A program made the translations under genes and the position numbers. A stretch of DNA of 64,000 nt from a virus: positions 1-64,000 of the IMG/VR virus record IMGVR_UViG_3300037247_001116; one strand, written 5' to 3'. This document shows, in pieces, positions 5,790 to 43,412 of this stretch (its first letter is position 1; the number at the start of each line of letters is the position of its first letter). Under the pieces are notes generated by a model. That model was not told the origin of the DNA, did not search any database, and worked only from the letters and a program-made list of their open reading frames with translations.

Positions 5790-5935
5790 AAAACCTCATT
5801 CTTTAAATCGTTTATTAAGTTACGAAGAAGTTTGTGTTTTAATTTTAAATCTTTTTGTTGTATTTTTATATCTTTAATTTCTTTTTCACACTTTTGTATC
5901 GATTCTATTCTACTTTCAATAGAGAATGATTTCAT
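5786..5935 (-). CDS. small coiled-coil protein, 49 aa
   Basis: Heptad-like pattern of Ile, Leu and Lys through most of its length. It overlaps the primase start by 4 nt and the end of the ClpP-like gene by 20 nt, so it is co-translated with both. Function unknown. Confidence 0.55.
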   Translation of the reverse strand: MKSFSIESRIESIQKCEKEIKDIKIQQKDLKLKHKLLRNLINDLKNEVL

Positions 5936-6485
5936 CCACTATCCCCTTTTCTAACATTTCATCGGCATATAAATATAAATCTTCACTATCAACTTTTTTG
6001 ATATCCGCTTCAGTTAATTTAGTATAAGTTCTTAGTTGATCATTGAATAATTTTTTATATTTTTTGATAAAATCATTGTGATTGTCCAATTGCGAACTGC
6101 CGCCCTCAAAATATGTTTTTAACTTATGGTCGAACCATACCGCGTCCTCATAACAGACTCTTTTATCTCCTGCAATTGAAATATGTGATGCTACGCTAGA
6201 TGCTTCGCCTGAAATGATTGTTACTACGGGAGATGAAATAATTTTCATAGTGTTTATAATTGATAAACCACAAGAACAACTTCCTCCTTCGCTATTAATA
6301 TATAACATAATAGGTTTGTTATTGAGAGTGTCTAGTGCAAACAATTCTTTGTTAATTCTTAGTGCTAATTCTTGCGTGACCTCTTCACAAATAAAAAGTT
6401 GCCTGTTGCCTAGAACCGTTAAATCGACATCAAATTCGTGTTTTATTAGGCTTCTTTTGTGTGCTGGTTTTCTTTTGGGTGACAT
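5916..6485 (-). CDS. divergent ClpP-like serine protease subunit
   Basis: 189 aa. The ClpP/crotonase fold is shown by PIMLYINSEGGS (strand and turn of the substrate groove), the nucleophile segment GEASSVAS (Ser97) and WFDHKL (His120); the third residue is probably Asp166 or Asp169. Family members assemble into barrels and need an AAA+ unfoldase for folded proteins. It departs strongly from the canonical phage ClpP at 31.8 kb and carries a basic 20-residue extension. It lies 2 nt downstream of an HslV-like gene, which suggests a joint role. It could instead act as a capsid-type or regulatory protease. Confidence 0.75.
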   Translation of the reverse strand: MSPKRKPAHKRSLIKHEFDVDLTVLGNRQLFICEEVTQELALRINKELFALDTLNNKPIMLYINSEGGSCSCGLSIINTMKIISSPVVTIISGEASSVASHISIAGDKRVCYEDAVWFDHKLKTYFEGGSSQLDNHNDFIKKYKKLFNDQLRTYTKLTEADIKKVDSEDLYLYADEMLEKGIVDEIILY

Positions 6486-6487
6486 AA

Positions 6488-7027
6488 TTAACCTTTCATT
6501 ATAACAAAAGGCGGTCTAACACCGCCACTAAATTTTACTGCTGTTTCTAATGCTTTCTTAATTATTGTTTCTGCCGATAGGTTTGTTGCTTCTAAAAGAC
6601 TTAAAGCTCCTTTTGCATAGTCAGATCCACATCCTACTGATTCAAAATTATAATATGATACGCCGACTTGTAAATCTCCTTCTAATTTATAGAGTCTTCT
6701 TTTATAACCTACCAAAAAAACCCCTATTCTTTCCGCGCTGTCTTTTATAGTGGCGAAAGCACCGTCTTTCAAACATTTTCTAACAGCATCAATAAAAAGA
6801 GTACACATGTATTCATAGTCGCTTATTTCCTCTGGTTGAGAAGGCACACTTAATTTAAATCGTAATAATTGCCCCATCCGAAAAGAAGAAGTGTAACCCA
6901 TAATAAACTTTCCATTACGAAAAACCTTTGCATCTTTTCTTGGCGTAATATGCAATCCTGCCACTCCTGCACTATCACCGCCGATATAAACTTTTTTGTT
7001 TTTTATATACCCAACAATGCAAGTCAT
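6488..7027 (-). CDS. HslV / proteasome beta-like threonine protease
   Basis: 179 aa Ntn-hydrolase. After removal of Met1 the chain starts with Thr. Counting that as Thr1, the proteasome catalytic residues fall at exactly the family positions: Asp17 in GGDSAG and Lys33 in KDAKVF. The later VGCGSDYAKGA matches the conserved GSG...A strand-helix of beta subunits. HslV normally forms dodecamers opened by HslU; no HslU-like gene is in the window. It is 2 nt upstream of the ClpP-like gene and 3 nt downstream of the 249-aa gene, so one transcript carries all three. Confidence 0.82.
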   Translation of the reverse strand: MTCIVGYIKNKKVYIGGDSAGVAGLHITPRKDAKVFRNGKFIMGYTSSFRMGQLLRFKLSVPSQPEEISDYEYMCTLFIDAVRKCLKDGAFATIKDSAERIGVFLVGYKRRLYKLEGDLQVGVSYYNFESVGCGSDYAKGALSLLEATNLSAETIIKKALETAVKFSGGVRPPFVIMKG

Positions 7028-7030
7028 AAT

Positions 7031-7780
7031 TTATTCCTTATTTTTTAAGTCTTGGATTAACTTATAAGAATGAGTCGCAATTTTAGTAATCATTGATAAA
7101 ACATCATCTGCCTTGCTGTCTTTATCAACTATAGAAGAAATAATGGTATATGCCGCTTTCATTGCCGCTTGTGCTTCGATTGAATTGCCAGTTCCTTTAT
7201 AAGTTTTCTTAGCACTACCAGTTTCTTTCCCTGTTTCTTTTTCTTCCTTTTTTTCCTCTACTTTTACAACATAACCTTTAATAACATCGTTGCCCTTCTC
7301 TTGTGGCAAAACTGTTATCTCTACTTCTTTGCCCGTGCATTCAGACTTGAATTTTTGAATCTCTATTGTGCTATCGAGATCATACCAAGTCTTTGTTTCT
7401 TTATCTTCTTTAAGTTTTACCCCGCCTTTTGCAGAAACACCAGCAATGGTTGATAATTTAACCACTAAGTCGCCAGACACATTTGGTTTTTCCGTATCTG
7501 GTTTCTCACCGCGACCATCTTCCTTTACGGGTTCTGCTTTGCCGTCAGACAGCTTCAACATCGTGATAGTACCTGATGACTCTCCTTCTTCGCCTGTTGC
7601 TGTTGATTCATCAATCTCGACATCAACGGTCTTATCTGCCAAGTCATCCCCAAGAAGCCCTTTTCCATCTAAAAACTTTGCAACTGCATCTGAAATATCA
7701 TATGTCTTATTTACTTTTTCCAACTTCAAAAATTTTTCGTCCTTCATTACCCACGAAACTACATCTGTTACTTTGCTCAT
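7031..7780 (-). CDS. uncharacterised acidic protein in replication operon
   Basis: 249 aa, not recognised. The N-terminal 150 residues are acidic and beta-rich, followed by a Lys/Glu linker (about 175-195) and a C-terminal helical part with SIEAQAAMKAA. Similar helical tails occur on some phage recombination or ssDNA-binding proteins, and the place between primase-helicase and 5' nuclease would fit an ssDNA-binding role, but no OB-fold motif can be read. It could equally be an adaptor or substrate for the protease pair downstream. Confidence 0.5.
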   Translation of the reverse strand: MSKVTDVVSWVMKDEKFLKLEKVNKTYDISDAVAKFLDGKGLLGDDLADKTVDVEIDESTATGEEGESSGTITMLKLSDGKAEPVKEDGRGEKPDTEKPNVSGDLVVKLSTIAGVSAKGGVKLKEDKETKTWYDLDSTIEIQKFKSECTGKEVEITVLPQEKGNDVIKGYVVKVEEKKEEKETGKETGSAKKTYKGTGNSIEAQAAMKAAYTIISSIVDKDSKADDVLSMITKIATHSYKLIQDLKNKE

Positions 7781-12094: not shown

Positions 12095-12662
12095 TTAAAT
12101 TATGCCAATTCTTTTTAGAATCAACTTATCGAACACTTCTATGTTTATGGTTTTATATAATCTTTTAAACTTTTTAAATTTGATTCTTGCATCATCTCTC
12201 CAATACCCCTTTATTTCAATCCATAAATCAAATTCAGGAAGATAAAAATCAGGAGTATATGTTGTGTTTCCTAATTCAAAAGTTTTTGATTCATAAACCC
12301 ATTCAATTCCTGATAAGTCACACCATTTAGCAAAATTTAATTCCCAAGAACTACGCATCCTAATGTTTTTATAAGTTCCCCAAATTCCATGTGTGGGAGG
12401 CTTTCCGTATCTACAACTATTTTTGCCTGAAAATAATTTCTCCGAACATTTTTTACAATAAGTGGCTGTGTATAGTTTTAATATTTTCCCACAATCTTTA
12501 CAATATCGTATTTTAAGAGTCCGACCGTCTTTATAACCACTATTTAATTTGCCTTTTTTACTACAAGCTTTGCATTTGGTTGATCTATAATCTATTTTTT
12601 TAAAACAACCCCCCGCATTTTTTCTCTATTAAACTTCTCCCGTCAATATATCCTGGTAACAT
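12095..12662 (-). pseudogene. homing endonuclease (zinc ribbon + NUMOD3 + VSR-like) broken by a G-run frameshift
   Basis: AAGGTG and an ATG at 12662 start MLPGYIDGRSLIEKKCGG; the frame then ends. Deleting one G from the GGGGGG run near 12609-12614 joins it to a frame that runs on as CFKKIDYRSTKCKAC, further Cys pairs (CKDC, CKKC), a NUMOD3-like FSGKNSCRYGKPPTHG, and a VSR/PD-(D/E)xK domain (TPDFYLPEFDLWIEIKGYW). Corrected length is 188 aa. Only the last 87 residues have an in-frame ATG. Inactivated mobile nuclease or homopolymer error. Confidence 0.75.
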
Positions 12663-12671
12663 AATAACACC

Positions 12672-12836
12672 TTATTTTAAAACTAACTTACAGACCTCTC
12701 TTTTAGTGTCGGTTAATTTATGCCCCATCAAACGCGGTACATCAACAGCCCACGCAATTCCTGATTGTCCTTTGATAATAACATCTTGTTCATCTTTGTA
12801 CAATTTCAAATACTCTTTCAATTCTTTAACTTTCAT
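12672..12836 (-). CDS. small conserved-type phage protein, 54 aa
   Basis: MKVKELKEYLKLYKDEQDVII is the common start of small phage proteins with an amphipathic helix followed by beta strands; function unknown. GGAAGAATAA precedes the ATG, which overlaps the end of the previous gene by 11 nt. Confidence 0.6.
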   Translation of the reverse strand: MKVKELKEYLKLYKDEQDVIIKGQSGIAWAVDVPRLMGHKLTDTKREVCKLVLK

Positions 12837-12978
12837 TTATTCTTCCTTCCATAATTTTATCATTTATAAAATTAGTTAATTCTTCAATCTGTTTTGTATA
12901 ATCACCAGCCCATAAAGCAAAATCATCGCGTTCTTTATTTAAAAACCTGTAAATTTCCATTGATGATATTTTATCCAT
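12826..12978 (-). CDS. small helical protein, 50 aa
   Basis: First gene after the promoter at 13062-13090. AAAGGAG lies 5 nt before the ATG. No motif recognised; helical and acidic. Its ribosome site can pair with the TTCTCC just upstream on the transcript, so its translation is the likely target of the leader RNA. Confidence 0.6.
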   Translation of the reverse strand: MDKISSMEIYRFLNKERDDFALWAGDYTKQIEELTNFINDKIMEGRINES

Positions 12979-12980
12979 GT

Positions 12981-13055
12981 TTCTCCTTTAATGGAGAAGT
13001 GGGCAAGGCGCGCTTTCCGAGTTGCAAGGATGCATCCAGGCAATACCCACTTCAT
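12981..13055 (-). promoter_or_regulatory. structured 5' leader with riboswitch-like architecture
   Basis: On the minus-strand transcript a perfect 8 bp stem (GAAGTGGG/CCCACTTC, 13053-13046 with 13003-12996) closes a 42-nt domain that starts about 2 nt after the predicted start site. Directly after it TTCTCC can pair with GGAGAA of the ribosome site (12986-12981 with 12998-12993), which shares CTTC with the closing stem, so the two helices exclude each other. I recognise no known riboswitch class. Confidence 0.5.
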
Positions 13056-13061
13056 ATTTCA

Positions 13062-13090
13062 AGTATAGCATAAATTTAAGTTTGTGTCAA
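13062..13090 (-). promoter_or_regulatory. strong sigma70-type promoter
   Basis: -35 TTGACA at 13090-13085, 17 bp spacer, extended -10 TGcTATACT with hexamer at 13067-13062. Predicted start near 13055. The -35 box begins right after the stop codon of the upstream gene. It drives the structured leader and the 12.98-kb gene leftward. Confidence 0.85.
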
Positions 13091-15568: not shown

Positions 15569-15597
15569 AGTATACCATATTGTTGCTTCTATGTCAA
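15569..15597 (-). promoter_or_regulatory. strong sigma70-type promoter
   Basis: -35 TTGACA (15597-15592), 17 bp spacer, extended -10 TGgTATACT (hexamer 15574-15569), start near 15562. The stretch from the -10 onward (TATACTTTACATATGAAAAG) is identical to that of the plus-strand promoter at 28868-28896. Confidence 0.85.
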
Positions 15598-16997: not shown

Positions 16998-17792
16998 TTA
17001 TTTCTCCTTTCTTATTTTTTCACAAATTTCTTTAATCATTTTTTCATCTGGTTCTGCGTATAATTCGGTTATAGCTATATTTGTGTGACCCATGACTTTT
17101 TTAAGATAAGATATATCCATGCCTTTTGTTAAACAATATTTTGCAAAACTAATTCTCATAGTTCTTGGTTCTACAATTTCGTGATCTGCAATATTCATAT
17201 CTCTTTTAATATCTTTAAACATCTTTTTTAACTGACAGTAGGTAATACTAAAAACATTTCCTCTCGTCAAGGACTCACAGTGGGCTTTCATATCATTATA
17301 GAGTTTATTATTAAGGAATGGAACATTTCTGTCCTTGTTTCCTTTAGCATTATAAAAGATTATATCCTTAGTATTAAAATTAATATGCTCTCTTTCTAAG
17401 TTTTTTAATTCTGAAGGTCTTGCCCCAAAATAAAACATAAACCTTAATATTAAATCTTTTTCATCATAATAAGTTCTTAAAATACTTTCTAAATCTTTTT
17501 CATTAAAATAATATTTGATTCCTTTTCGTTTTGTTGATTTCCATTTCGGAAACTCTAATTCTATTTTAGAATAATTTGTGTAAGCAATCATGGCTCTCTT
17601 GAAAGAGTTAATGGTGTTGTTTGATTTACCATCTTCTCTTAATTTAATTAAATAATTATTCAAGGTTTCTTGGCAAATATTATATTGACAATATTTACCA
17701 TAATAATCGACTTGTTGAAAATAAGCCATTACAGTTTTTTCAGAATTTTTATTTAATTTAAGCCATTCAAGAAATTTATCTAGTAGATTCAT
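16998..17792 (-). CDS. tyrosine recombinase (phage integrase family)
   Basis: 264 aa, XerC-sized, with a SAM-like N-terminal domain and a catalytic domain from about residue 95. Catalytic residues visible: Arg125 in GARPSELKNL, Lys153 region in GNKDRNVP, Arg213, His236 in VMGHTNIA and Tyr245 in TELYAEP. Box II reads PRTMRISF where the family has H-x-L-R-H, so both box II histidines are replaced. It could integrate the phage, resolve multimers or act as an invertase. No repressor gene was recognised in the window. Confidence 0.82.
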   Translation of the reverse strand: MNLLDKFLEWLKLNKNSEKTVMAYFQQVDYYGKYCQYNICQETLNNYLIKLREDGKSNNTINSFKRAMIAYTNYSKIELEFPKWKSTKRKGIKYYFNEKDLESILRTYYDEKDLILRFMFYFGARPSELKNLEREHINFNTKDIIFYNAKGNKDRNVPFLNNKLYNDMKAHCESLTRGNVFSITYCQLKKMFKDIKRDMNIADHEIVEPRTMRISFAKYCLTKGMDISYLKKVMGHTNIAITELYAEPDEKMIKEICEKIRKEK

Positions 17793-28190: not shown

Positions 28191-28380
28191 AAATAGGTCT
28201 GATCTACAATTATTGGAAGGAAGGGCTAAAGTGATCATTAATACATCATTTTTGATTAATTACCGAAACGAAATGGGGATAAAACATCATAGTTGATAGT
28301 TTATAGTAAACTAACAATAGAACACTTGTCCTATTTTATAGAACGGCATCTAAGCCGCCAAACGGCGCAAAGAAGGCGCA

Positions 28381-28440
28381 GGGCGGCGCAGGGCGGCGCA
28401 GGGCGGCGCAGGGCGGCGCTGGGCGGCGCAGGGCGGCGCT
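28381..28440. repeat. six 10 bp tandem repeats GGGCGGCGC(A/T)
   Basis: Units are exact except the last base (A, A, A, T, A, T). The run is preceded by diverged fragments (GGCGCA at 28375) and by related ACGGCGC text, and followed by GGG. Almost pure GC inside strongly AT-rich DNA. The six GGG runs plus the trailing GGG could form a G-quadruplex. Confidence 0.95.
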
Positions 28441-28471
28441 GGGTTGATTATCGCTAAAAGATCCAAATAAG

Positions 28472-28867: not shown

Positions 28868-28896
28868 TTGACAAAAACCATTAATTATGGTATACT
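28868..28896 (+). promoter_or_regulatory. strong sigma70-type promoter abutting a start codon
   Basis: TTGACA 28868-28873, 17 bp, extended -10 TGgTATACT (28891-28896). The expected start site is 28903, the A of the ATG of the next gene. Confidence 0.85.
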
Positions 28897-28902
28897 TTAC
28901 AT

Positions 28903-29277
28903 ATGAAAAGAAAATGGATAAAACAAGGTTCTAAACGCAATTGTGGACAAATCGCTGTCGCGGTTATTACAGGAGAATCTTTAGAAAAAGTATCATATGT
29001 GATCGGTCATGATCATGGCACAAAGACAAAAGAATTAGCAAAGGCTTTAAGATTTTTTGGCTATGATTGTCCTGACAGGTTACAACGCTTAAAAGAAAGA
29101 CCGAAATTAGCAATAGCCAAACTATCAACTTATGGTAAATCTTCTTGGCATTGGGTTGTTATTGATGGTGATAAAATTTATGATGGGGTGAATGGCACAG
29201 AAAGCGGAACGGTGAATTGGACATGGAGCAATTGCAAAAGAATAACATCTTATTTACCTATTAAAAAGAGGAATTAA
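28903..29277 (+). CDS. C39-like papain-fold cysteine peptidase
   Basis: 124 aa. NCGQIAVAVITG places the nucleophile Cys14 at the start of a helix, SSWHWVVIDG gives His83 and KIYDG Asp94, the Cys-His-Asp order and spacing of C39-like peptidases (bacteriocin-leader peptidases and related phage proteins). Single domain, no signal peptide, no membrane part. There is no ribosome site; the ATG coincides with the predicted transcription start. RtcB follows after 1 nt. Likely substrate unknown: host or phage peptide. Confidence 0.65.
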   Translation: MKRKWIKQGSKRNCGQIAVAVITGESLEKVSYVIGHDHGTKTKELAKALRFFGYDCPDRLQRLKERPKLAIAKLSTYGKSSWHWVVIDGDKIYDGVNGTESGTVNWTWSNCKRITSYLPIKKRN

Positions 29278-29278
29278 A

Positions 29279-30511
29279 ATGAGAATTTATGAAACCACAA
29301 TCAGAAACAGTCCTATTTTATCTTGGTGTATGCATCCAGAAGAGGGCGCATTAGATCAGGCGAGAAATTTAGCATCTTTGCCTTTTATTTATCGTCATGT
29401 AGCTCTTATGCCAGACACACATCAAGGTTATGGAATGCCAATAGGAGGGGTTGTCGCGACACAGGGCGTTATTATCCCAAATGCCGTCGGCGTGGATATT
29501 GGCTGTGGCATGTGCGCTGTTAAATCGAGTTTAACCGATGTTACCACAGAACAATTGAAAAAGATTTTAGGCGGTTCTGAAGAAAACCAAGGTGGGATTA
29601 GAGGAAATATCCCTGTGGGTCGTAACCGTCACAAAAAAGATCAAGACGAATTATTAATGCCTGATAATAATAATATGGTAGATTGGTGTGAGACACACTA
29701 TTGGGATGAAAAATATAATTCTGTTGTACAAAAAGAATACAATTCTGCATTAAAACAACTCGGCACTCTTGGAGGCGGAAATCATTTTATCGAAATCCAA
29801 AAAGGAGATGATGGGTTTGTTTGGATTATGATTCATTCAGGAAGTAGAAATTTAGGTTATACAGTTGCGAAACATTATAATAAGGTAGCACAAGATTTAT
29901 GTAAACTGTGGTATTCGGATATTCCTGAATATAAAGGAGAAGATGGATTAGCCTTTTTACCTATCGGAACTGAAGAAGCCAGTAATTATATTAGAGAGAT
30001 GAATTATTGTATAGAGTTCGCTCATGCTAATAGACTTCATATGTTAGACAATGTGATACGTGCGTTTTTCAATGCTGGAATAGATTGTATTTTTGATAAA
30101 GAAATTAACATAGCCCATAACTATGCACAATTAGAAAATCATTTTGGTAAGAATGTTTGGATTCATAGAAAAGGAGCCACATCAGCCAAAGAAGGGGAAT
30201 TAGGTATTATCCCAGGATCTCAAGGAACATCATCTTATATTGTGAAAGGAAAAGGAAATAGAGATTCTTTTAATTCCTGTTCTCATGGTGCAGGAAGAAA
30301 AATGAGCCGTAAGAAAGCGCGTAATGAATTAAGTTTAGAAGATGAACAAAAAATGTTAAACGATCAAGGAATTCTTCATGCTTTAAGGGGCAAAGGCGGA
30401 TTAGATGAAGCGCCAGGAGCTTATAAGGACGTTAAAATTGTAATGGAAGAACAAAAAGATCTTGTTGAAATAGTGGTCAAATTAACCCCATTAGCTGTTG
30501 TGAAAGGATAA
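29279..30511 (+). CDS. rtcB: RtcB RNA-splicing ligase
   Basis: 410 aa, full family length. RtcB joins RNA 2',3'-cyclic phosphate (or 3'-phosphate) ends to 5'-OH using GTP and Mn. Seen: MPDTHQGYGMPIGGV, VDIGCGM with metal ligands Asp73 and Cys76, GTLGGGNHFIE, IHSGSRNLG, IPGSQGTSSYIVKG and SHGAGRKMSR with the guanylylated His. This repairs the ends left by tRNA-cutting toxins. The RNA ligase at 31.2 kb lies three genes downstream. Confidence 0.95.
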   Translation: MRIYETTIRNSPILSWCMHPEEGALDQARNLASLPFIYRHVALMPDTHQGYGMPIGGVVATQGVIIPNAVGVDIGCGMCAVKSSLTDVTTEQLKKILGGSEENQGGIRGNIPVGRNRHKKDQDELLMPDNNNMVDWCETHYWDEKYNSVVQKEYNSALKQLGTLGGGNHFIEIQKGDDGFVWIMIHSGSRNLGYTVAKHYNKVAQDLCKLWYSDIPEYKGEDGLAFLPIGTEEASNYIREMNYCIEFAHANRLHMLDNVIRAFFNAGIDCIFDKEINIAHNYAQLENHFGKNVWIHRKGATSAKEGELGIIPGSQGTSSYIVKGKGNRDSFNSCSHGAGRKMSRKKARNELSLEDEQKMLNDQGILHALRGKGGLDEAPGAYKDVKIVMEEQKDLVEIVVKLTPLAVVKG

Positions 30512-31815: not shown

Positions 31816-32412
31816 ATGCAAGAAAAGAATTATTTAGTTCCAATGGTTATTGAGAAGACACAAAACGGAGAGAGGTCATATGATATTTATTCCAGACTTT
31901 TAAAAGACAGGATTATTTTTCTTGGCACACAGGTTAATGATGATGTTGCAAATCTTATTATTGCTCAATTACTTTTTCTACAGGGCGATGATGCCAATAA
32001 GCCAATCAGTATGTATATTAATTCACCAGGAGGGGTTATTACCGCAGGGATGGCTATTTACGACACCATGCAGTTTATTAAACCGCCTGTCAACACTTAC
32101 TGTCTTGGTCAATGTGCAAGTATGGGCGCGTTACTTTTAACTGCTGGCGCAAAAGGCGGAAGGTTTGCACTTCCTTATTCTCGCATTATGATTCACCAGC
32201 CATCAGGCGGTACAGGAGGGCAAGAAACAGACATTCAGATTCAGGCGAAGGAAATAGCTAGAATGAAAAAAGAATTAACTCAAATAATTGCAAATCGTAG
32301 CGGTCAAAAATTTGCCAAGGTAGCAAAGGATTGTGAAAGAGATTATTTTATGTCAGCACAGGAAGCAAAAGATTATGGGCTAATCGATGAAGTGCTTGGA
32401 AAAAAATTGTAA
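31816..32412 (+). CDS. clpP: ClpP protease proteolytic subunit, canonical
   Basis: 198 aa, near the length of bacterial ClpP. Catalytic triad Ser102 (GQCASMGA), His127 (IMIHQPSGG) and Asp176 (CERDYFMSA); all three are offset by 5 from E. coli Ser97/His122/Asp171. The handle region and YINSPGG are intact. It could assemble alone or mix with host ClpP and use host ClpX or ClpA. AAAGGAATAAT precedes the ATG. No Clp ATPase in the window. Confidence 0.92.
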
Positions 32413-39943: not shown

Positions 39944-39972
39944 TTGACACAACCTCTAAAATATGTTATACT
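39944..39972 (+). promoter_or_regulatory. strong sigma70-type promoter
   Basis: TTGACA 39944-39949, 17 bp, extended -10 TGtTATACT (hexamer 39967-39972), start near 39979. Shares TTGACACAAC and AAATATGTTATACTT with the 28676 promoter. It directs a short terminated RNA or, by read-through, the structural operon. Confidence 0.85.
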
Positions 39973-39978
39973 TAACCG

Positions 39979-40131
39979 TAAGGCTAAAATAGGGCTTACT
40001 CTGTTTTATGTATTTTTATAATTCGTAAACTATTGTAATTAAAGAAGTTAGTGTTTTAAATTAAATAATTAAAATGGAATCCCTAGAGATAAAGCTAATA
40101 AAAAGTGATTTATCTCTATATATTTTTTTTT
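39979..40131 (+). ncRNA. small RNA candidate with own promoter and terminator
   Basis: About 153 nt from the predicted start to the T-tract, with no credible reading frame. The 5' end can form GTAAG/CTTAC. A convergent promoter on the minus strand lies 40 bp beyond the terminator. It could be a regulatory RNA of the phage or an attenuator ahead of the late genes. Confidence 0.5.
40084..40131 (+). terminator. intrinsic terminator
   Basis: Perfect 10 bp stem TAGAGATAAA (40084-40093) / TTTATCTCTA (40109-40118), loop 15 nt, then TATATTTTTTTTTT. The stem is AT-rich, so termination may be partial and controllable. Confidence 0.7.
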
Positions 40132-40172
40132 ACACTAATAATCAAATTATATGTATATTCCGCGTCATTACA

Positions 40173-40201
40173 AGTATAACATATATTTTTAACAATGTCA
40201 A
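40173..40201 (-). promoter_or_regulatory. strong promoter facing against the late genes
   Basis: TTGACA 40201-40196, 17 bp, extended -10 TGtTATACT (40178-40173), start near 40166. It points leftward into the small-RNA region and has no leftward gene to serve nearby, so its product would be antisense to the small RNA. Confidence 0.8.
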
Positions 40202-41015: not shown

Positions 41016-41776
41016 TGCAAAATAAAACTTGTACAAAATGTAATGATGAAAAAGAGATTTCTGAATTCAACAAACAATGTTCTCACAAAGACGGTCATAG
41101 GTCTGCTTGCAAAAAGTGTATGAGAGAATATAGAGATAACAATAAAGAAAAAATCAAAAAGCAACAACAAACCTATCATATAAATAACAAAGAATATGTG
41201 TCACAAAAACAGAGTCGGTATAGAGAAATAAACAAAGAAAAAATTTCTAAACAGAAACAATTGTTTTCTAAAAATAATTCTGAAAAAATAAAAATTCGTG
41301 GGCAAAATTATTATTTAAAAAATAAATCTATAATTAATAAAAAATCCAAAGATTATTATTTAAAAAATAAAGGAAAACTTTTAGATTATCAATCGAATTA
41401 TAACAAGAATAATCGAGAAACAATTTCGCAATATCAGAAACATTGGCAAAAATTAAAAAGAGATACTGATATTTCTTTTAAACTCAAATCAAATTTAAGA
41501 ACTAGAATTCATCATGCGATTGAGGGCAACATCAAATCTCTCAGAACAATGTTTCTTATTGGTTGTGAGGTTGATTATCTCATGTATCATCTTCAAGAAC
41601 AATTTCAACCTGGCATGTCTTGGGATAATTATGGCGATTGGCATGTAGACCACATCAAACCATGTGCAAGATTTGATTTAAGCAAACCCGAAGAACAACT
41701 AAAATGTTTTCGCTACACAAATCTTCAGCCCCTGTGGTCTGAAGATAATTTAAGAAAAGGCTCAAAATATGCGTGA
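41015..41776 (+). CDS. HNH endonuclease with zinc ribbon beside the terminase
   Basis: 253 aa. CTKCNDEKEISEF...CKKC ribbon, a long Lys/Asn/Tyr-rich linker, then HNH with WHVDHIKPCARFDL and YTNLQPLWSEDN. Paralogue of the 7.8-kb HNH. HNH genes next to terL can take part in packaging, or it may simply have been inserted between the terminase subunits. Overlaps terL by 8 nt. Confidence 0.78.
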   Translation: MQNKTCTKCNDEKEISEFNKQCSHKDGHRSACKKCMREYRDNNKEKIKKQQQTYHINNKEYVSQKQSRYREINKEKISKQKQLFSKNNSEKIKIRGQNYYLKNKSIINKKSKDYYLKNKGKLLDYQSNYNKNNRETISQYQKHWQKLKRDTDISFKLKSNLRTRIHHAIEGNIKSLRTMFLIGCEVDYLMYHLQEQFQPGMSWDNYGDWHVDHIKPCARFDLSKPEEQLKCFRYTNLQPLWSEDNLRKGSKYA

Positions 41777-43412
41777 GAACATTACAGAGAGTCAAATTTC
41801 GTTTATCTGCGGTCTTCATGATCCAGTGTGCGTGAAGGAGAGCTTGTACCCTGAGAACCTGAAGGCATGTCATACTTGGATTGAACCTGATTGCAAGCTT
41901 TTCACGATAAGGAATTACCAGCGCGCATGGCAACCTTATAATTGGCTACTTTGTGATGACACTTCTTTAAGGAAAGAACAAAACTTAAAGAAAAAAATAT
42001 TAGCTGGTAAATGCTATAATTTAGGGGCAAGAGATATAGGAAAGTCATATGACTTTGTTCAAGCAGATTTTCCGTTACATATTGTTTTAAATCCAGGCAA
42101 AGAGAGTTGTTTGATTTCTGCAACTTCAGGATTTTTACAAAAAGTAGCAAGTCCTATTTTAAACATTTTCCGTGACCATGCCTTCTTCAAACTATTTCAG
42201 AAGAAAGGCAAGTCTCAAGGTATTAAAGCTGGCGAAAATATGGAGATACAAGCCAGGACAGGTCATACTTGGTATGGTCGAAATGAAAAAATCAGTGACC
42301 CCGAACCAGGACAAAAAGTACAGGGTCTTCATTACGAGATACTTGGATATGAAGAATATTCATATGCTACATCAAAGGGCGAAGAAAAAAGGATTGACTC
42401 TGGAACTTCGGTTGGCGAAATAGAAAGATTTAGTGGCATCCCTGATATTCGTATTGATTCTCCCCTTGGCGATGTCTTTAACGATGAACAGAATAAAAAA
42501 TTTATTTGTCGTCTTCCTCAATACGTACGCGAGGATTGGAGCGAAGCACAAAAAAAGAAAAGAGCCGATAAATATAAAGGCGAATCTTCTCTTGCCTTCA
42601 AATTAAATGTTATTGGCGAAAAACAAGAAGGTGCATTCGGGTTTTGGGATATTCCAAAAATCAAAGAAGCTTGTCTTGTAAAATCGAAACTAATAAAACA
42701 ATTTGATATTGACGAAAAAAGATTCAAGAATTTTGAGAAGTATTTAGTTATTGACAGATTGCCAGCCCAACAAATTTATATGTGTGCTGATATTGGTGCT
42801 GGTGCAAGACCAACAGAAATAGCGATTTTATTCTTTAACGGCACTCATTATGAATTGACTTACAACGTCACATTGAATATCAAATCAAGTCAAGCACAAG
42901 CAGAGGTTTTTGCTTATATTTATAAACAATTGGGTGGAGCTTTTGTTGGTATTGATGCTACGACAGATTACGGTATTGCTGAAAGATTAAAGAATGATTA
43001 CGATTTTATAAAACCTGAACATATTTTTGCTATTGATTTGCGGAAAAATATTCCAGTCGCATACGAAAGACATCCTGATAAAAAAGATGGCACACCTGGA
43101 TTAATAAAAAGAAACCGTGATGGTTCTCCGATTATCAAATATATGATCGCGATAGATTTTGCAATGACACAGTTAGAAGATTTGTTGTACAATGGAAAAA
43201 TAAAAGTTCCTTTAGATAATAAATTTTTCAAAGAGTTTTCGGATTTTCTTGTATTACAATCAAAGATAAGAAAAACATACGATACATCAAGCACAGACGA
43301 TTATCACCAAGCATTTCAGATTTTTGCCATCGTAAGACACGAATATGAGTGGCAACAGTTAATTAATATGAATAACACAGACACAAGCTCTGGTTGTTTA
43401 GGCTCAATTTAA
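41769..43412 (+). CDS. terL: terminase large subunit
   Basis: 547 aa DNA-packaging motor and nuclease. ATPase domain: Walker A variant GARDIGKS (86-93), Walker B HYEILGYEEY (about 189-197) with the catalytic Glu. Nuclease domain: MCADIGAGARPTEIAI near residue 340 (first Asp) and FVGIDATTDYGIAERL near 395, with a further acidic site before the C-terminus. It cuts genome concatemers and pumps DNA through the portal. Confidence 0.88.
   Translation: MRENITESQISFICGLHDPVCVKESLYPENLKACHTWIEPDCKLFTIRNYQRAWQPYNWLLCDDTSLRKEQNLKKKILAGKCYNLGARDIGKSYDFVQADFPLHIVLNPGKESCLISATSGFLQKVASPILNIFRDHAFFKLFQKKGKSQGIKAGENMEIQARTGHTWYGRNEKISDPEPGQKVQGLHYEILGYEEYSYATSKGEEKRIDSGTSVGEIERFSGIPDIRIDSPLGDVFNDEQNKKFICRLPQYVREDWSEAQKKKRADKYKGESSLAFKLNVIGEKQEGAFGFWDIPKIKEACLVKSKLIKQFDIDEKRFKNFEKYLVIDRLPAQQIYMCADIGAGARPTEIAILFFNGTHYELTYNVTLNIKSSQAQAEVFAYIYKQLGGAFVGIDATTDYGIAERLKNDYDFIKPEHIFAIDLRKNIPVAYERHPDKKDGTPGLIKRNRDGSPIIKYMIAIDFAMTQLEDLLYNGKIKVPLDNKFFKEFSDFLVLQSKIRKTYDTSSTDDYHQAFQIFAIVRHEYEWQQLINMNNTDTSSGCLGSI

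Follow-up and report, generated by a model that had tools for sequence, protein, structure and literature searches.

The locus lies on the minus strand of a virus contig of 102.7 kb and 33% GC (IMG/VR record IMGVR_UViG_3300037247_001116), the first 64,000 nucleotides of which form the window, the whole stretch of DNA that was analyzed and to which positions refer. Read from 13090 to 12978, the sequence comprises a promoter, six bases, ATGAAGTGGG...CCCACTTCTCCATTAAAGGAGAAAC and the ATG of a gene encoding 50 amino acids (aa), which is followed in the same operon by a gene encoding 54 aa. The features are as follows, all on the minus strand:

13062..13090 (-), promoter TTGACA-N14-TGCTATACT, an exact match to a pattern with eight copies in the genome; -35 at 13090-13085, extended -10 TG at 13070-13069, -10 at 13067-13062
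13055 (A) (-), predicted transcription start, seventh nucleotide after the -10, deduced from the promoter and supported by a spike of ATG at offset 6
12996..13053 (-), 58-nt hairpin domain with closing stem GAAGTGGG/CCCACTTC, predicted from fold energy and control statistics
12939..13055 (-), 38-codon frame MKWVLPGCILATRKARLAHFSIKGETWIKYHQWKFTGF plus stop, read from the sequence, with ATG at the predicted +1; a possible leaderless upstream frame
12981..12998 (-), predicted helix covering the Shine-Dalgarno sequence (SD), TTCTCC (12998-12993) with GGAGAA (12986-12981); 6 bp, loop of 6
12826..12978 (-), 50-aa gene with SD AAAGGAG and phage-typical codon use
12672..12836 (-), 54-aa gene, read from the sequence, overlapping the end of the 50-aa gene

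Eight exact copies of TTGACA-N14-TGNTATACT exist in the genome, this promoter among them. With up to two mismatches allowed, the window contains nine occurrences where chance alone would give 0.96, and the related phages G001 and G003 each carry several exact copies. We predict that 13090-13062 acts as a strong extended -10 promoter that starts transcription at about 13055, which would give a leader of 77 nt. Of 34 promoters in four phages, seven have an ATG at offset 6 from the -10, the one at 13055 included, and one has it at offset 4; every other offset from 0 to 12 has none. In four of these seven, the frame that follows is 91 to 206 codons long and appears from its sequence to be a leaderless gene. 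ATGs that open such frames are found at 28868-29279 (+) in the window, at 17205 (+) in G001, and at 7263 and 6794 (-) in G003. A practical by-product is a clean promoter consensus, TTGACA-N14-TGNTATACT, common to several related phages, in which apparent leaderless genes start precisely six bases further on.

Immediately behind this promoter, the arms at 13053-13046 and 13003-12996 pair over 8 perfect bp, and the predicted fold lengthens the closing stem to 10 bp through a U-G and an A-U pair. In the interior, a helix of two pairs carries a bulge of seven bases (AAAGCGC), and an inner hairpin, TGCA-TCCT-TGCA, follows. Minimum free energy for the 61-nt stretch is -22.6 kcal/mol, compared with -14.7 ± 2.7 for shuffles (z = -2.95), and just 1 of 200 dinucleotide shuffles was as stable; the whole 116-nt context reaches a z of only -1.65. 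Among all 61-nt windows on both strands of the 102.7-kb genome, the hairpin ranks as the seventh most stable cluster, with 0.15% of random windows reaching its energy and 0.53% of random positions starting a stem of at least 8 bp with the same span. The probability of finding a hairpin this strong at one of eight promoter starts by chance is roughly 1 to 4%. No other start has a stem longer than 5 bp, either at the eight exact promoters of this genome or at the 34 promoters counted across the four related phages; in this the hairpin is unique. By these folding models the hairpin is real and special to the promoter at 13090-13062, if statistically not overwhelming. The initial annotation had placed a 58-nt domain with a perfect 8-bp closing stem at the very 5' end of a transcript and had described its interior as GC-rich within an AT-rich genome. 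The domain and its stem held up, and its composition is indeed distinct (56% GC against 33%). Its position agrees with the predicted start, as the stem begins at 13053, 2 nt past the +1 of an exact promoter.

Directly adjoining the domain, TTCTCC/GGAGAA forms a local hairpin over the SD that is longer than at any other of 307 SD-led starts in three phages. The annotation had recognized this anti-ribosome-site helix, but had CTTC shared with the closing stem, whereas the overlap comprises 3 nt, TTC (12998-12996). The predicted energy of the leader is -28.0 kcal/mol with the full closing stem and -27.8 kcal/mol with the full SD helix, and the hairpin core, which is predicted to fold by itself with no ligand or partner, is kept in both. 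As just three pairs are exchanged between structures 0.2 kcal/mol apart, an on/off switch would be weakly built. Mean accessibility of the SD is 0.35, an ordinary value that ranks at the 30th percentile when 312 start sites of these phages are compared.

The 50-aa gene resembles a genuine phage gene in its synonymous codon score, which falls at the 93rd percentile of gene chunks, and the overlapping 54-aa gene is likely translationally coupled to it, judging by their arrangement. The operon downstream has weak Pfam matches, below the cut-off, to nucleoside deoxyribosyltransferase and dATP/dGTP diphosphohydrolase. Farther along the same strand, positions 12095-12640 (-) contain a region resembling a zinc finger and a Holliday-resolvase/VSR-like endonuclease, which is probably a homing endonuclease. 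Its frame is apparently broken near a run of G at about 12610, and the second frame has no preceding start codon. An HNH-like gene, recognized by eye, occupies the same spot in G003 (L061 5447-5995).

The upstream frame presents a different picture from the 50-aa gene. Its 38 codons cross the hairpin and enter the 50-aa gene in a different frame, and although it has a start codon at the predicted +1, as expected of a leaderless gene, its coding sequence is not gene-like: its codon use ranks at the 4th percentile when compared with chunks of real genes, and the protein has no convincing relative in phage records. WVLPG occurs both in the frame and in an AT-rich phage family, but the resemblance was judged to be forced by the search pattern and was set aside. 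Two promoters of the window, at 15597 (-) and 28868 (+), have TATGGTATACTTTACATATGAAAAGAAAA in common; one leads to an apparent leaderless 124-aa frame, the other to a frame of 22 codons that overlaps a 46-aa gene led by an SD.

Searches for relatives of the leader returned only the copy in the window. Rfam 15 gave no match at the gathering threshold, in line with the earlier statement that the leader fits no known class, and at a permissive E-value only chance matches to snoRNA, lncRNA and tsr31 families appeared. Hammerhead, HDV-like, twister and pistol ribozymes were considered, and Rfam matched none of them. Exact and gapped DNA patterns for four parts of the domain, which could miss diverged copies in the viral collection, found in viral contigs either nothing or unrelated sequences that lacked the remainder of the domain, and the pattern for one part gave only chance matches in bacterial and archaeal genomes. 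Likewise, blastn against phage and plasmid records returned just short chance pieces, a one-sequence covariance model did not find the fold at the loci of related phages, and no repeat of the hairpin was found elsewhere in the genome. By all three routes (patterns, blastn and covariance model), a conserved aptamer core of the kind that defines a riboswitch was not recovered.

No relatives were found through the 50-aa protein, the 54-aa protein or the exonuclease. Three related IMG/VR contigs were found solely through the deoxyribosyltransferase-like neighbor, at 64 to 68% identity; this protein had no relative in bacterial and archaeal genomes, and neither it nor a 547-aa open reading frame (41769-43412) had a match in 50,697 phage records. 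By sequence, the phage is far from sequenced phages. Reading of the open reading frame lists shows that gene order is conserved in G003 (L061), with a lipoprotein, a dGTPase-like protein, two small proteins and an exonuclease. Between the lipoprotein gene and the deoxyribosyltransferase-like gene, the phage studied here carries the promoter, the leader and the 50-aa and 54-aa genes; the same interval holds other genes and zero exact promoters in G003, and one other gene in G001. Neither the leader nor the two small proteins were found in any of the three related phages, and the leader structure is known from one genome only. A 15/16 match in G002 was rejected, as it lies in repetitive sequence without the fold.

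Elsewhere in the window, positions 28365-28454 consist of head-to-tail 10-bp units of GGCGCAGGGC, 80 to 90% GC in a 33% GC genome, located where gene direction and GC skew switch; an origin or a regulatory repeat is possible. A pair of exact promoters pointing towards one another, with about 200 bp between them, lies at 39944-40201; no long frame follows either, a hairpin stands at the start of the plus-strand transcript, and antisense or small RNAs are a possible product. The loci at 5916-6485 (-), 31816-32412 (+) and 6488-7027 (-) hold two ClpP-like proteases, the first recognized by Pfam and the second by eye, and a protein with a start like that of a proteasome-type hydrolase and no Pfam match.

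Structures at the 5' end are known to stabilize mRNAs, and a 5' stem-loop combined with an SD is a known recipe for a stabilizer of bacterial mRNA (PMC3997798, citing aprE, ompA, papA and bla). RppH and RNase E require single-stranded 5' ends (PMC3997798). We tentatively propose that the small phage operon carries a structured 5' leader that acts without a ligand, protects the 5' end and has a modest effect on the level of translation, a reading to which we give a little less than an even chance. The RNA would begin at about 13055 with around two free nucleotides, followed by the 10-bp hairpin. Burial of the 5' end would slow decay that depends on it, through pyrophosphate removal and entry of RNase E or RNase J, while the small helix, by partly covering the ribosome site, may lower or time translation of the 50-aa gene. 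The promoter match, the folds, the statistics and the absence from relatives are what the analysis shows; the actual start site and the effects on decay and translation are inferred. In favor of the proposal are a strong, adjacent SD, the good codon use of the 50-aa gene, and a stable hairpin within a few nucleotides of the start predicted from an exact promoter (stem from 13053), as in 5'-terminal stabilizing stem-loops; this hairpin also folds strongly with no partner and is unique among the promoters compared. Against it, a plain stabilizer could make do with a simpler interior of lower GC, the structure is seen in a single genome, and chance alone would place such a hairpin at one of eight promoters with a probability of about 1 to 4%. 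If the leader is a stabilizer or a translation gate, it would be a further example of uncultured phages shaping the mRNAs of small genes.

Other readings of the same structure are each less probable, in the falling order of protein operator, chance or recent insertion, upstream leaderless frame and riboswitch. Many phage translational operators place a hairpin beside the SD, and a phage or host protein, acting autogenously or in trans, could here hold or open the hairpin beside the ribosome site. The hairpin does adjoin the SD and small proteins are encoded immediately downstream, but no partner was identified and the hairpin is not repeated in the genome, and we regard an operator as unlikely, if foremost among the rivals. 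Alternatively, a GC-rich inverted repeat without a regulatory role may have arisen behind the promoter by chance or been acquired recently, for instance as a small insertion. Its foreign composition, its absence from relatives of the same gene order and the 1 to 4% chance expectation would suit such an origin, whereas the exact fit between the predicted +1 and the SD, together with an SD helix that is also the best of 307, argues against it; a flanking target duplication, as might accompany a mobile hairpin, was looked for and not seen. We assign this origin a low probability, just behind the operator.

70S ribosomes are known to initiate at an AUG that stands at the 5' end (PMC9031893), and were they to do so at 13055, translation of the 38 codons would melt the hairpin, cross the downstream start and couple to or compete with the 50-aa gene. 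The concentration of ATGs at offset 6, some of them opening long frames, lends weight to this idea, but the frame has atypical codon use and no convincing protein relative, and the hairpin, whose first base is the G of the AUG, should make binding harder. Translation of the frame is possible but not favored, and its control of the operon is doubtful. The initial annotation had interpreted the leader as a translational riboswitch of unknown class, in which a small ligand would stabilize the 58-nt domain, complete the closing stem and free the ribosome site (ON). A structured leader with a potential SD-covering helix stands, and the bases shared by the closing stem and that helix, its rank among 307 starts, the GC-rich, multi-bulge interior and the possible nucleotide-metabolism genes downstream (weak, below-cut-off Pfam matches) would all accommodate a switch. 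Yet no Rfam family matches, no relative was found by exact patterns or blastn in viral contigs, phage records, plasmids or bacterial and archaeal genomes or at the three related phage loci, and the weak exchange of pairs speaks against it as well. With no relative, neither conservation nor covariation was seen, which weighs against a riboswitch by the criterion that the annotation itself had set. The riboswitch interpretation is not supported, and we consider it improbable; if true, it would mean a class in phages that bacteria are not known to have, but nothing found calls for a ligand switch. A long shot is that the leaderless AUG is folded into the GC-rich hairpin and that a ribosome entering from the 5' end, or a ligand that holds the hairpin, sets whether the downstream site is open, which would be an undescribed kind of phage switch.

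Among known systems, the early transcripts of T4 e and soc carry a local hairpin that sequesters the SD, and alternative transcripts start inside the hairpin. The leader described here also has a local hairpin over the SD, but no second promoter was identified at the locus. Like translational riboswitches, it sets a closing stem beside an SD-covering helix with bases in common, but it shares only 3 bases and lacks a conserved core, relatives or an Rfam match. With leaderless genes of the lambda cI type (PMC9031893) it has in common an AUG at the predicted +1, although its frame is short and atypical in its codons, and an SD-led gene comes after it. The leaders of E. coli ompA and papA and B. 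subtilis aprE (PMC3997798) are similar in layout: the phage interior is more complex and includes an SD-covering helix, but like them the leader is short (77 nt) and sets a 5' hairpin closely before a strong SD.
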